Shown here: one piece after another, positions 1-7,590 of the stretch
Position numbering within the stretch: the stretch's first letter is position 1
Layout of the letters: each line of letters opens with the position of its first letter
Source of the DNA: Corallococcus macrosporus
GTDB taxonomy: Bacteria > Myxococcota > Myxococcia > Myxococcales > Myxococcaceae
Reading direction: 5' to 3'
DNA length: 64,000 bases
Assembly: GCF_017302985.1 (NCBI RefSeq)
Contig: NZ_JAFIMU010000005.1
Span: 1-64,000, forward strand
Position numbers and translations under genes: made by a program
Notes under the pieces: model-generated
The model's database searches: none
What the model was told of the DNA's origin: nothing
Seen by the model: only the letters and a program-made list of their open reading frames with translations

Positions 1-1182
1 CTGGAACGAAGGCGCACCCATGGCACCCTCGTTGAGGTTCGCGGCGATGCCCCAGCCCAGCAGCGTGTAGACGACACCCATGAACGCGCCGAACCACGGG
101 TTGAGCACCGGGAACAGCAGGTTGCGCCAGGTCATCCGCCGCGACGTCCGCTTCGGCGGGAAGCACTCCTTCAGCTCGAAGCCGCCCGGCGACTGGTCCT
201 TCTTCGGCAGGTGCGTGGGGTGCAGGAAGGCCCCTCCCCCACCCGCGACAATCTTCTGCCGCCCAGCCGCGTCCTGGTGCCGGCGGTAGTGGTGCAGGTC
301 TCCCGCGAGGAAGACGCTCACACTCTTGCCCAACACCCTGCGCTCCAGGAAGTCGATGTTGTTGTCCAGGAAGCCTCGGCCCGCGTGGGGCGTCACCTGC
401 TGTTTGATCCACGCCGGCTCCGCGTTGCAGAGGATGATGCGATCCGTGGGTGCCATCTTCTTCCGGGCCACCTTCTGGAAGAACCTCACCTGCGGCAGGT
501 CCAGGTCGGATTGCAGCTGCATGTCCGTGCCCAGCAGCCACCAGCCGTGCGGCAGCTTCAGCGCGAAGTAGCTGCGCCGCTGCCGCGTGTGCCAGCCCTT
601 GGAGTGGCGGCCCTGGCAGAACAGGCGCGTGAAGGACACCAGCCCGTCGTACCAGTCATGGTTGCCGGGCACCGCGAACAGGTGCGGCCGGGGACGCCGC
701 CTGTTCAAGGCGGCCTCGTAGGGCACCACCGTGCGCGCCTGGTACTCCTCCACGCTCGCGGTCGGATAGACCTCATCCCCACCGAACACGAGCACGTCAC
801 CGCCCTCCGTGGAGTGCGTCTTCCCGCAGGCGTCCGTCAGCTCGAGCTTCGGCGCCATCACCGTGGAGGCCACCGCGTAGGTGGAGTCCCAGCCGTCGCC
901 CAGGTCCGACACGTAGTCCAGCCACAGCTCGTCGCGCGGGTGCTCCGTGTTCGTCTCCGAGTAGTCGAAACACAGCGGCTGGGGCTGCGACACGGCGTCC
1001 AGCAACCGCCGGTCCGCCTGCCGTCCGAACGTCCCCGACAGCAGCGCCTTCACGCCGGACTTCGCGAGCACGGCCGGGTCGAACCACGACACCATCGGCT
1101 TGCCCGGAGGCGTCCGCGGCTGGGGCGCGGGCTCCGTGCGCCGGCCCGGCATGCGGCTCACATCGGAGGCGCGGACGGCCAT
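1..1182 (-). CDS. Metallophosphoesterase with C-terminal membrane segment (partial, runs off window start)
   Basis: Last gene seen of the minus-strand lipid operon; its 3' end lies beyond position 1. The visible 394 codons carry calcineurin-type metal-binding motifs: GGDEVYP, a PGNHDWYDG block and GDLHHYRR. These are typical of metal-dependent phosphoesterases. A hydrophobic stretch (NPWFGAFMGVVYTLLGWG) near the window edge predicts a C-terminal membrane region. The ATG at 1182 is chosen because GGAGGGAAC directly precedes it; it overlaps the 3' end of the GMC oxidoreductase by 25 bp, which supports translational coupling. The substrate is unknown; operon context suggests a phospholipid or other lipid phosphate, which is inference. 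Confidence 0.8.
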   Translation of the reverse strand, partial: MAVRASDVSRMPGRRTEPAPQPRTPPGKPMVSWFDPAVLAKSGVKALLSGTFGRQADRRLLDAVSQPQPLCFDYSETNTEHPRDELWLDYVSDLGDGWDSTYAVASTVMAPKLELTDACGKTHSTEGGDVLVFGGDEVYPTASVEEYQARTVVPYEAALNRRRPRPHLFAVPGNHDWYDGLVSFTRLFCQGRHSKGWHTRQRRSYFALKLPHGWWLLGTDMQLQSDLDLPQVRFFQKVARKKMAPTDRIILCNAEPAWIKQQVTPHAGRGFLDNNIDFLERRVLGKSVSVFLAGDLHHYRRHQDAAGRQKIVAGGGGAFLHPTHLPKKDQSPGGFELKECFPPKRTSRRMTWRNLLFPVLNPWFGAFMGVVYTLLGWGIAANLNEGAMGAPSFQ

Positions 1183-6531: not shown

Positions 6532-7590
6532 TCAGTGCGGCAGCGAGCGATCCAGCTCGGAGAGGATGAGGGGGAAGACGTCCTGGGACGCGCGCTTGCC
6601 CATGAAGACGTCCAGGTGGCCGTAGCCCGGCAGGAGGTGCAGCGCGTGCCGGCCCGGGTGGAAGCGCTCCAGGTGCTCGAAGCTGCGGCGCTGGCTCTCC
6701 GCGAGGAAGCAGCGGTTCTCCTCGCCCGCGAAGAAGACGAAGCGCGCGTCCGTCTGGGGCTCGCGCTCGCCCAGGTCCTCCGGCAGCGCGCGGAAGCCCT
6801 CCACCGGCACCAGGTGGCCCGCGCGCACGCACTCCTCCATCTGGCGGAAGAACGTGAAGGGCACGGGGCCGAACTCGTGCTGGAGCCAGTCGTGCGTCCG
6901 GGCGTTGAGGTTCTCGTGCCGCCACAGCACGGGGAAGCCCGTGCCGTAGGTGAAGCTCGTCCAGCGGCAGACGAGATTGTCGCACTCGTGATGCGTCGCC
7001 TTCACCACGCGCGTCAGCACGCGCGCCGTGCGCGTGGGGCCGCCGTAGGCCCACTGCGGATCCAGGTACGGCGTGAAGCTGGAGACGAGCGGGACGGCGT
7101 AGCGCAGCTTCAGCTTCGCGGTCGCGGGCACCACCGGGTGCAGGGACACGGCGTTGGTGAGGATGAGGTCCACCTGGGGCAGCAGCCCCGCCACCGCGGC
7201 CATGGTGAAGCTGGTGGAGCCCTGGCAGTGGATGATGGCCTTGACCTTGTCCGCCCCCGTCTTCTCCACCACGGTGCGGATGGCGGGTGGGTGGTCCAGG
7301 ACGGCGGCCTGGTCCAACGTCCACTCGCCCGGCTCCACGTCGATGCTGGCGCGCCAGTTCTCCAGCCACACGTCGTAGCCGTCCGCAATCAGCGCATCCA
7401 CCACCGTCTGGCGCACCGGGGCGCGGAAGATGTTCCCGCGCACTCCCGCCCCATGCACCAGCACCACCGGCCCCTTGTCCGCCTTCTCGACGCCGCGCAG
7501 GTGCACCAGGTGCAGCGCGCGGCCGTCGCCCGCGAGGAAGGGCACGATCTCCTCGGAGTAACGCGGCTCATGGATTGTTTCCGCGGACAT
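6532..7590 (-). CDS. Alpha/beta hydrolase (lipase/esterase-like), first gene of the lipid operon
   Basis: 352 residues. VLVHGAGVRG around residues 44-53 supplies the oxyanion region, Ser125 in HCQGSTSF is the probable nucleophile, and His325 in GYGHLDVF is the probable catalytic histidine. This hydrolase type is often found fused to or next to cholesterol-oxidase-like GMC enzymes, and here the GMC gene lies four genes downstream. The ATG at 7590 was chosen over an earlier one at 7641 because a GGGGGGA ribosome site lies just upstream of it. The 158 bp to the divergent gene at 7749 should contain the operon promoter. Confidence 0.85.
   Translation of the reverse strand: MSAETIHEPRYSEEIVPFLAGDGRALHLVHLRGVEKADKGPVVLVHGAGVRGNIFRAPVRQTVVDALIADGYDVWLENWRASIDVEPGEWTLDQAAVLDHPPAIRTVVEKTGADKVKAIIHCQGSTSFTMAAVAGLLPQVDLILTNAVSLHPVVPATAKLKLRYAVPLVSSFTPYLDPQWAYGGPTRTARVLTRVVKATHHECDNLVCRWTSFTYGTGFPVLWRHENLNARTHDWLQHEFGPVPFTFFRQMEECVRAGHLVPVEGFRALPEDLGEREPQTDARFVFFAGEENRCFLAESQRRSFEHLERFHPGRHALHLLPGYGHLDVFMGKRASQDVFPLILSELDRSLPH

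Follow-up and report, generated by a model that had tools for sequence, protein, structure and literature searches.

The first 7,590 nucleotides of a 64,000-nucleotide stretch of Corallococcus macrosporus DNA (assembly GCF_017302985.1, contig NZ_JAFIMU010000005.1; hereafter the window) carry six genes on the minus strand, read from position 7590 down to 1. From the open reading frames (ORFs) and their Pfam matches, these encode, in order, an alpha/beta hydrolase (ABH), an acetoacetate-decarboxylase-like protein (ADC), a small membrane protein (MEM), a three-part patatin (PAT), a GMC oxidoreductase and a metallophosphoesterase (MPE) (Table 1). A gap of 14 nt separates ABH from ADC, and at the four later junctions the genes overlap by 4, 4, 17 and 25 nt. 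Window base 1 is also base 1 of the contig (9.8-Mb genome, 17 contigs), so the MPE gene is severed by the contig edge. Its complete relative in L033 is 606 aa long, and three hydrophobic segments mark the C-terminus (L numbers denote loci and G numbers genomes of this analysis). L033 is a close relative of the window locus, with a barrel 95% and a GMC protein 92% identical, and the window patatin shares 94% identity with its C. exercitus counterpart; the nearest named relatives are Corallococcus. A first-pass annotation, made from the sequence of the window, had described a tightly coupled six-gene operon with a three-part patatin. Both descriptions hold, the patatin consisting of a DUF4345-like membrane part, a patatin domain and a C-terminal domain.

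Table 1. Positions of the operon genes and of their parts in the window.
Feature	Position	Strand	Characteristics
Alpha/beta hydrolase (ABH)	6532–7590	minus	352 aa; predicted acid-lipase fold; Cys122 (HCQGST), His325, Asn292 at usual acid position
Acetoacetate-decarboxylase-like protein (ADC)	5576–6517	minus	313 aa; PF06314 E 2.9e-17; Lys137 in GGKGIWGMPKH
Small membrane protein (MEM)	5037–5579	minus	180 aa; anthrone-oxygenase-type (PF08592) relation, below Pfam cut-off
Three-part patatin (membrane part, patatin, barrel)	2917–5040	minus	707 aa
Patatin N-terminal membrane part, residues 1–190, DUF4345-like	4471–5040	minus	hydrophobic segments
Patatin domain, residues 204–373	3922–4431	minus	PF01734 E 1.1e-21; GTSGG nucleophile Ser; DSVWIQDAN for Asp
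Barrel module, about residues 493–691	2968–3564	minus	limits from L033 orthologue; 8 predicted antiparallel strands and C-terminal helices; without Pfam family
GMC oxidoreductase, cholesterol-oxidase-related, without barrel extension	1158–2933	minus	591 aa; PF05199/PF00732
CxxCxxCxxxC motif of GMC (C206, C209, C212, C216), candidate Fe-S site	2286–2318	minus	ferredoxin-like spacing
Metallophosphoesterase (MPE), incomplete	1–1182, runs past <1	minus	PF00149 E 4.4e-5

A barrel module shared by patatins and GMC oxidoreductases

Residues 498–691 of the window patatin match two GMC proteins encoded at other places in this genome (38%, E 3.4e-28; 36%, E 7.3e-24). In both, it is the C-terminal extension of the oxidoreductase that matches, as a profile confirms (L124, L125). 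Judged from these alignments, the patatin C-terminus is homologous to the GMC extension, far beyond chance, and the proposed relation of this region to a segment of large GMC/hydrolase proteins is thereby corroborated. In the set of 104 modules used for the first tree below, a profile built from relatives found the module on 43 GMC proteins, 59 patatins and two unassigned pieces.

The AlphaFold model of the module (pLDDT 89.9, pTM 0.84) shows about eight successive antiparallel strands followed by helices, and we refer to the module as the barrel. Every enzyme family in the gene set is already known, and the barrel is in neither Pfam nor NCBIfam as tested: Pfam has no family for the window barrel, with just two weak single-member matches (E 0.033, 0.091) among 88 members, and NCBIfam gave nothing over the barrel part of the window patatin. 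In a VIA comparison, which covers VIA-listed families and thus not the classical lipocalins, the best match (Z 10.2) was to a chain of annelid haemoglobin, and the top rows were closed beta-barrels.

The barrel could itself be an enzyme, namely a closed-barrel isomerase, cyclase or dehydratase that acts on a ketone made by the GMC protein and is fused to its neighbours for channelling. Its residues are strongly conserved, with W125 invariant and D123 and D127 each kept in 90% or more of the 88 rows, all in the stretch DDPGxDxWxDTTTLY (numbering of a 212-residue construct; 88 of 101 stretches aligned, 13 actinobacterial patatin copies omitted, L042 and L058 skipped earlier), and weak Foldseek rows include allene oxide cyclase and Diels-Alderases (E 0.08–0.3). 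However, no barrel enzyme was matched significantly, by structure or by sequence, and the actinobacterial patatin-borne barrels are shortened and diverged. We regard an enzymatic barrel as unlikely, and a connector or carrier as fairly probable.

The other two parts of the patatin are variably recognised. The patatin domain scores 78.4 bits for PF01734 (gathering threshold 27.7 bits); its nucleophile motif GxSGG is kept in 62 of 64 rows, the other two reading GTSSG and AASGG, and the Asp is kept in all 64. DUF4345 (PF14248) is matched below its cut-off of 26.5 bits by the N-terminal part of two relatives (E 0.0017 and 0.0023; 18.4 and 18.8 bits), while the Pfam scan gave no such match for the window's own N-terminal part. 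In the non-myxobacterial loci displayed, the membrane part is, where found, a separate ORF (for example L053, L091, L095, L132, L142, L143, L145 and L152). Several lineages have an extra small membrane gene here: in L095 (9366–9785; DUF4345 E 9.5e-14) it lies between the DUF4345-like gene and the patatin, and in L051, L057, L058 and L091 a gap follows the DUF4345-like gene, ahead of the patatin.

Conservation of the gene set

Scanning GTDB genomes with the patatin gave 66 loci, of which 65 were kept (L098, a 90-residue match with no module, was dropped). These come from Myxococcota, Actinomycetota, Pseudomonadota, Acidobacteriota, Chloroflexota and Bacteroidota. Profiles for eight modules were applied, and any occurrence of a module within the retrieved stretch, of at most about 20 kb, was counted. 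By this measure ABH, ADC, PAT, GMC and MPE occur together in 56/65 patatin-anchored loci, and all eight modules in 53/65; among the 12 loci missing some module, several are on short contigs. The genes are thus clustered rather than scattered in other species, as the first-pass annotation expected.

Since the 65 loci had been picked via the patatin, a second anchoring was made on the ADC-like protein. All 30 strong ADC homologues in 195 Myxococcota genomes (E ≤ 1e-100; eight weaker ADC matches in seven genomes fall outside this count) adjoin a match of the patatin protein by coordinates. In 26 cases the neighbour is the patatin or its N-terminal part, and in four the barrel alone (G077, G079, G117, G119); in G062 the patatin match covers residues 1–159 only. 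Patatin matches occur in 65 of 145 genomes, and comparisons with ADC rest on the matches listed. Among these, G096, G097, G102, G105 and G108 have related patatin-barrels without an ADC match. A second, shorter set of patatin-barrel and phosphoesterase occurs in Pyxidicoccus (L045, 8335–12623).

In the 11 loci inspected, flanking genes are common to close relatives only, with the exception of a sigma-54-type regulator (label from sequence) near the set in L049 (Geothrix) and in eight myxobacterial loci. In the window, the divergent neighbours (8241–11507, plus strand) may encode a protein of intradiol dioxygenase type and the regulator and kinase of a two-component system, going by the resemblance of their translations. 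The gene set very probably constitutes one functional unit.

Such a unit could conceivably be an anti-phage or conflict system, in which a horizontally spread patatin effector is accompanied by helper genes. The barrel has a patchy distribution (8/198 Actinomycetota, 7/349 Pseudomonadota and 4/247 Bacteroidota, where each count includes the centre genome, chosen for having the barrel), and some copies are on plasmids. Against this, no PADLOC family gave a useful score on the six proteins (best E 0.03), and the modules include no nuclease or signalling gene, the identified parts being lipid-type enzymes, a phosphoesterase and membrane proteins. This explanation is scarcely credible.

Fusions and carriers of the barrel

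The barrel was seen on GMC, patatin, hydrolase and, in one genome, ADC-like proteins, or as a lone gene. The fusions comprise GMC-barrel, GMC-barrel-ABH (10 ORFs, 1145–1183 aa), barrel-ABH (2), PAT-barrel and ADC-barrel (the one genome). Many actinobacterial operons hold the barrel twice, as a strong match on the GMC protein and as a shortened, diverged copy on the patatin. The window type, found in Myxococcota, joins membrane part, patatin and barrel, next to a GMC protein that lacks the barrel.

Other Myxococcota arrange the same pieces differently. A lone barrel gene lies between ADC and GMC in L110–L112, between ABH and GMC in L113–L115, and ahead of GMC and ABH in L116–L118. ADC and barrel form a single ORF in L109, and its sister L110 has a stop between the two, both as assembled. 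Barrel-ABH fusions occur in L119 and L128, a PAT-barrel beside GMC only in L121, and a GMC-barrel-ABH single ORF of 1169–1170 aa in L122 and L123. Genomes of Pseudomonadota and Bacteroidota, as well as a Leptospira plasmid, also encode similar single chains; where annotated, they are called ‘alpha/beta fold hydrolase’ or ‘GMC oxidoreductase’. These fusions suggest that GMC, barrel and ABH work together, joined in the operon by ADC, patatin, MPE and small membrane proteins.

A distant 1908-aa protein on an Ensifer plasmid (L154, 6902–12628) combines GMC, a Cys-nucleophile ABH (HCMG) and a PhoD-like phosphatase; its middle part is not recognised by the barrel profile (E 0.04 at best). In Corallococcus terminator (L042, 3883–7560) a 1226-aa frame runs from patatin through a truncated barrel into GMC from residue 42, as if deletion-fused, and G071 has a frame of the same length.

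In a tree of 104 barrels, which includes the window and is drawn mostly from patatin-anchored loci, one branch (98/86) splits GMC-borne from patatin-borne barrels. A second tree of 93 barrels, covering all architectures, requires no fewer than 18 carrier changes, compared with a possible minimum of 5 and a mean of 45.7 after shuffling. Thinning removed 31 locus ids from this tree (near-copies, plus L042 because its barrel is truncated) and 30 ids from a 68-row GMC tree; short matches were also left out, and L033 stands in for the window in both. The 93-row tree is midpoint-rooted for drawing only, and the long branches of L089, L091 and L059 make its deep placement unsure. Within it, the close relatives of the window barrel fall in a clade of 30 rows (99/90) made up of patatin-borne and lone barrels and a single ADC-borne one. 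A mainly GMC-borne clade of 42 rows (99/93) has the single chains nested inside it, and the diverged actinobacterial patatin copies make up a third group. The patatins of L121 and L146 bear GMC-type barrels and look like genuine carrier switches.

One ancestral enzyme split into pieces was considered and rejected, as the 93-row tree does not put the single-chain form at its base. With the window-type barrel in the patatin-borne lineage and the single chains nested in the GMC-borne clade, inheritance of a GMC-hydrolase fragment by the window patatin is therefore unsupported. Thus, of the earlier proposal that parts of one multifunctional enzyme were re-sorted among genes, the re-sorting stands, given the several carriers and the carrier changes, while the origin by splitting is unsupported. 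In the 68-row GMC tree, myxobacterial GMC proteins fall in a clade of 40 (100/100) alongside actinobacterial GMC-barrel proteins. This is compatible with a loss of the barrel from myxobacterial GMC proteins, the fork that joins them to their barrel-bearing sisters having 82/83 support only.

A hydrolase with a cysteine nucleophile

In ABH the Cys nucleophile and the His are kept in 98/98 relatives’ rows (96 distinct) across architectures; these rows, like the 96 GMC rows below, hold two duplicated genes (L044/L127 and L068/L152). Asn292 is invariant in the 45 operon-type rows aligned (45 of 63 ABHs), and a role at the acid position can be presumed for it. In the AF2 model (pLDDT 91.8) Cys122 sits at the strand-helix elbow. 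The nearest solved folds are lysosomal acid lipase (6v7n; Z 32.2 over 321 of 352 residues) and gastric lipase (Z 31.4 over 312 residues), then polyhydroxyalkanoate (PHA) synthase. A neutral-lipid lipase fold thus carries the kind of nucleophile used by the acyltransferase PhaC, from which we infer that ABH probably performs acyl transfer.

On a Rhodococcus pyridinivorans plasmid (L133, 7348–9017), a Cys-type ABH accompanies a marginally barrel-like 198-aa protein (18 bits, one-sequence search). A type I polyketide synthase is located about 3.7 kb from this ABH, and the intervening DNA encodes a thioester reductase and an IS3 transposase. This polyketide synthase neighbourhood fits acyl transfer, as one case.

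Alternatively, the set could be a catabolic cassette for external ester lipids (wax, sterol or triterpenol esters, prey lipids), in which the lipases free an alcohol, GMC oxidises it and the ADC-like enzyme shortens the product. The solved structures nearest to ABH and GMC, an acid lipase/cholesteryl ester hydrolase and cholesterol oxidase, would suit such a role, and many named hosts belong to genera known as soil bacteria or predators. However, the hydrolase nucleophile is Cys and not Ser in every one of the 98 rows, and the flanks of the 11 loci inspected had no transporter, CoA ligase or beta-oxidation gene in common. We consider catabolism improbable.

The remaining enzymes and the membrane protein

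The GMC protein exceeds the Pfam thresholds for PF00732 (33.5 vs 23 bits) and PF05199 (71.5 vs 24.6 bits) and aligns with the cholesterol oxidase structure 1coy (E 2.7e-28). The active-site His is present in 96/96 rows and the Asn in 93/96, the other three having His. In its Cys loop, C206, C212 and C216 are kept in 96/96 relatives’ rows (94 distinct) and C209 in 70/96. That this loop binds an iron–sulfur (Fe-S) cluster is a guess prompted by the motif.

The ADC-like protein scores 63.4 bits for PF06314 (cut-off 29.8 bits), with the best Pfam stretch covering residues 30–168 alone. The motif WGMPKH occurs in 64/64 rows, so that the first Lys is kept and the second Lys position is His throughout; in an alignment with the ADC structure 3c8w (E 1.1), the latter reads PKK at this place. 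The His in place of the second Lys makes acetoacetate decarboxylation by this protein appear doubtful.

MPE matches PF00149 with 24.4 bits (gathering threshold 21.5), and its GNHD and GDLHH-type motifs are kept in 60 rows. MEM falls below the PF08592 cut-off of 27.3 bits (E 1.1e-4, 22.8 bits), as do three relatives (E 9.8e-6 to 6.2e-5, 23.6–26.2 bits).

Sterol and hopanoid synthesis

The first-pass annotation had suggested a possible pathway for a sterol-like or other surface lipid and proposed checking co-occurrence with sterol biosynthesis genes. A sterol or hopanoid biosynthesis operon would account for the cholesterol-oxidase-like GMC, and the window’s own genome has matches to PF13243 (squalene/oxidosqualene cyclase) and PF08491 (squalene epoxidase), both on contig C7. 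However, among 53 genomes a PF13243 match was found in 13/29 operon-bearing genomes, compared with 15/24 without the full operon; it was not found in 16/29 operon-bearing genomes, and neither family in 11/29. Some matches are weak and partial, hence presence is over-counted. The 29 may count one genome twice, as G082 and G150 look like one genome (identical ABH and GMC), and five of them (G151, G152, G154–G156) are metagenome-assembled, which makes absence there less sure. With neither family in 11/29, sterol or hopanoid synthesis is not the general purpose of the set and was rejected as such; the test concerns synthesis rather than use of external sterols. A sterol or hopanoid operon is thus a very improbable explanation, and that suggestion was not upheld.

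A proposed membrane-tethered assembly

From the gene set, its conservation, the fusions, the conserved active-site residues and the predicted folds, we infer a physical complex, a role for the barrel, an order of reactions, acyl transfer and a location at the membrane. In this model, to which we give about even confidence, a conserved, partly mobile lipid-modifying cassette encodes an assembly tethered to the membrane, in which a hydrophobic alcohol is oxidised and acyl-modified and the barrel serves as connector or carrier. Release of a hydrophobic substrate from membrane or storage lipid would fall to the phosphoesterase and to the patatin, the latter held in place by a DUF4345-like anchor. 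GMC would oxidise an alcohol on this substrate to a ketone and pass the electrons on, perhaps via a Cys-bound Fe-S cluster. The ADC-like enzyme may then act on the ketone or beta-keto product through its Schiff-base lysine, and the Cys-nucleophile, acid-lipase-fold ABH would move an acyl group to or from the product. The barrel would be a shared docking or lipid-carrying part that holds the enzymes together, which would explain its fusion to several of them.

Several observations weigh against this model. The connector role of the barrel is drawn from fusion logic; Foldseek gave no match with E ≤ 0.001 and hence no confident fold match that would inform on function, so that carrier, scaffold and enzyme are indistinguishable by fold. 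The barrel also has a carrier outside the lipid-enzyme set, standing at the N-terminus of a 931-aa DUF362-domain frame (L126, 7071–9863), and the window GMC beside the membrane-PAT-barrel protein has no barrel. GMC and MPE are on the other strand in L051, as is MPE in L091; L045 consists of PAT-barrel and MPE only; and the stretches of L113–L118 yielded no ADC, patatin, MPE or membrane genes. For the Fe-S idea, ferredoxin matches to the GMC Cys motif are non-significant (E 2.1 and above).

More broadly, and as a tentative proposal, the set may represent an undescribed lipid pathway whose core occurs in at least seven phyla. In this pathway the barrel would be the interchangeable connector of a GMC dehydrogenase and a Cys-nucleophile acyltransferase of acid-lipase fold, larger sets would add the ADC-like enzyme, patatin and phosphoesterase, and what is made would be an oxidised or acylated bacterial lipid that has so far escaped recognition. 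Among the titles and abstract openings listed by searches of open-access literature, which leaves most subscription papers outside, none concerns this gene set. Five enzyme families that are named separately in databases travel together and share one undescribed domain, and the database names hydrolase, acetoacetate decarboxylase and cholesterol oxidase are probably wrong for these proteins. The set also forms a defined, testable unit: the fusions predict proteins that touch, and from the Cys nucleophile an acyl enzyme is to be expected, which could be trapped. Should the product be a lipid, it would be one so far missed in Corallococcus, Arthrobacter and Streptomyces.

Comparison with known systems

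Acetoacetate decarboxylase has an adjacent Lys-Lys pair, one lysine forming the Schiff base and the other lowering its pKa. The ADC-like protein shares the PF06314 match and the Schiff-base Lys position, and differs in that the second active-site Lys is His in all 64 rows, leaving no Lys-Lys pair. With cholesterol oxidase (1coy), the window GMC has in common the GMC fold and the active-site His and Asn pair; however, 1coy has no Cys at the position of the Cys-rich loop, and the window protein scores 201.2 bits for the cholesterol oxidase family NF058674, below the curated cut-off of 850 bits. Iron–sulfur clusters occur in GMC enzymes of the fructose dehydrogenase and glucose dehydrogenase type.

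ABH has the same overall fold as the acid lipases, whose HSQGT motif aligns with HCQGS, and differs from them in its Cys nucleophile in place of Ser and in the invariant Asn at the acid position. PhaC is an acyltransferase with a Cys nucleophile, and ABH resembles it in combining such a nucleophile with an alpha/beta fold (Z 25.6; weak profile matches, E 0.0066 to 1.4e-4). Its scores for the class I NCBIfam family, at 14.9–20.5 bits (window ABH 14.9), nevertheless fall far from the cut-off of 622.65 bits.

Single-chain proteins of about 1150 aa are encoded on plasmids of Azospirillum, Rhizobium, Leptospira and Bernardetia. Unlike in the window operon, ADC-like, patatin and small membrane genes were not found alongside in the stretches read, and their barrel belongs to the GMC-borne clade, in contrast to the window-type barrel. 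In Azospirillum a metallophosphoesterase lies directly upstream. These chains carry the same GMC, barrel and Cys-hydrolase modules as the operon, as identified by profiles for Azospirillum, Rhizobium and Leptospira and by tblastn over 98% of the query for Bernardetia.

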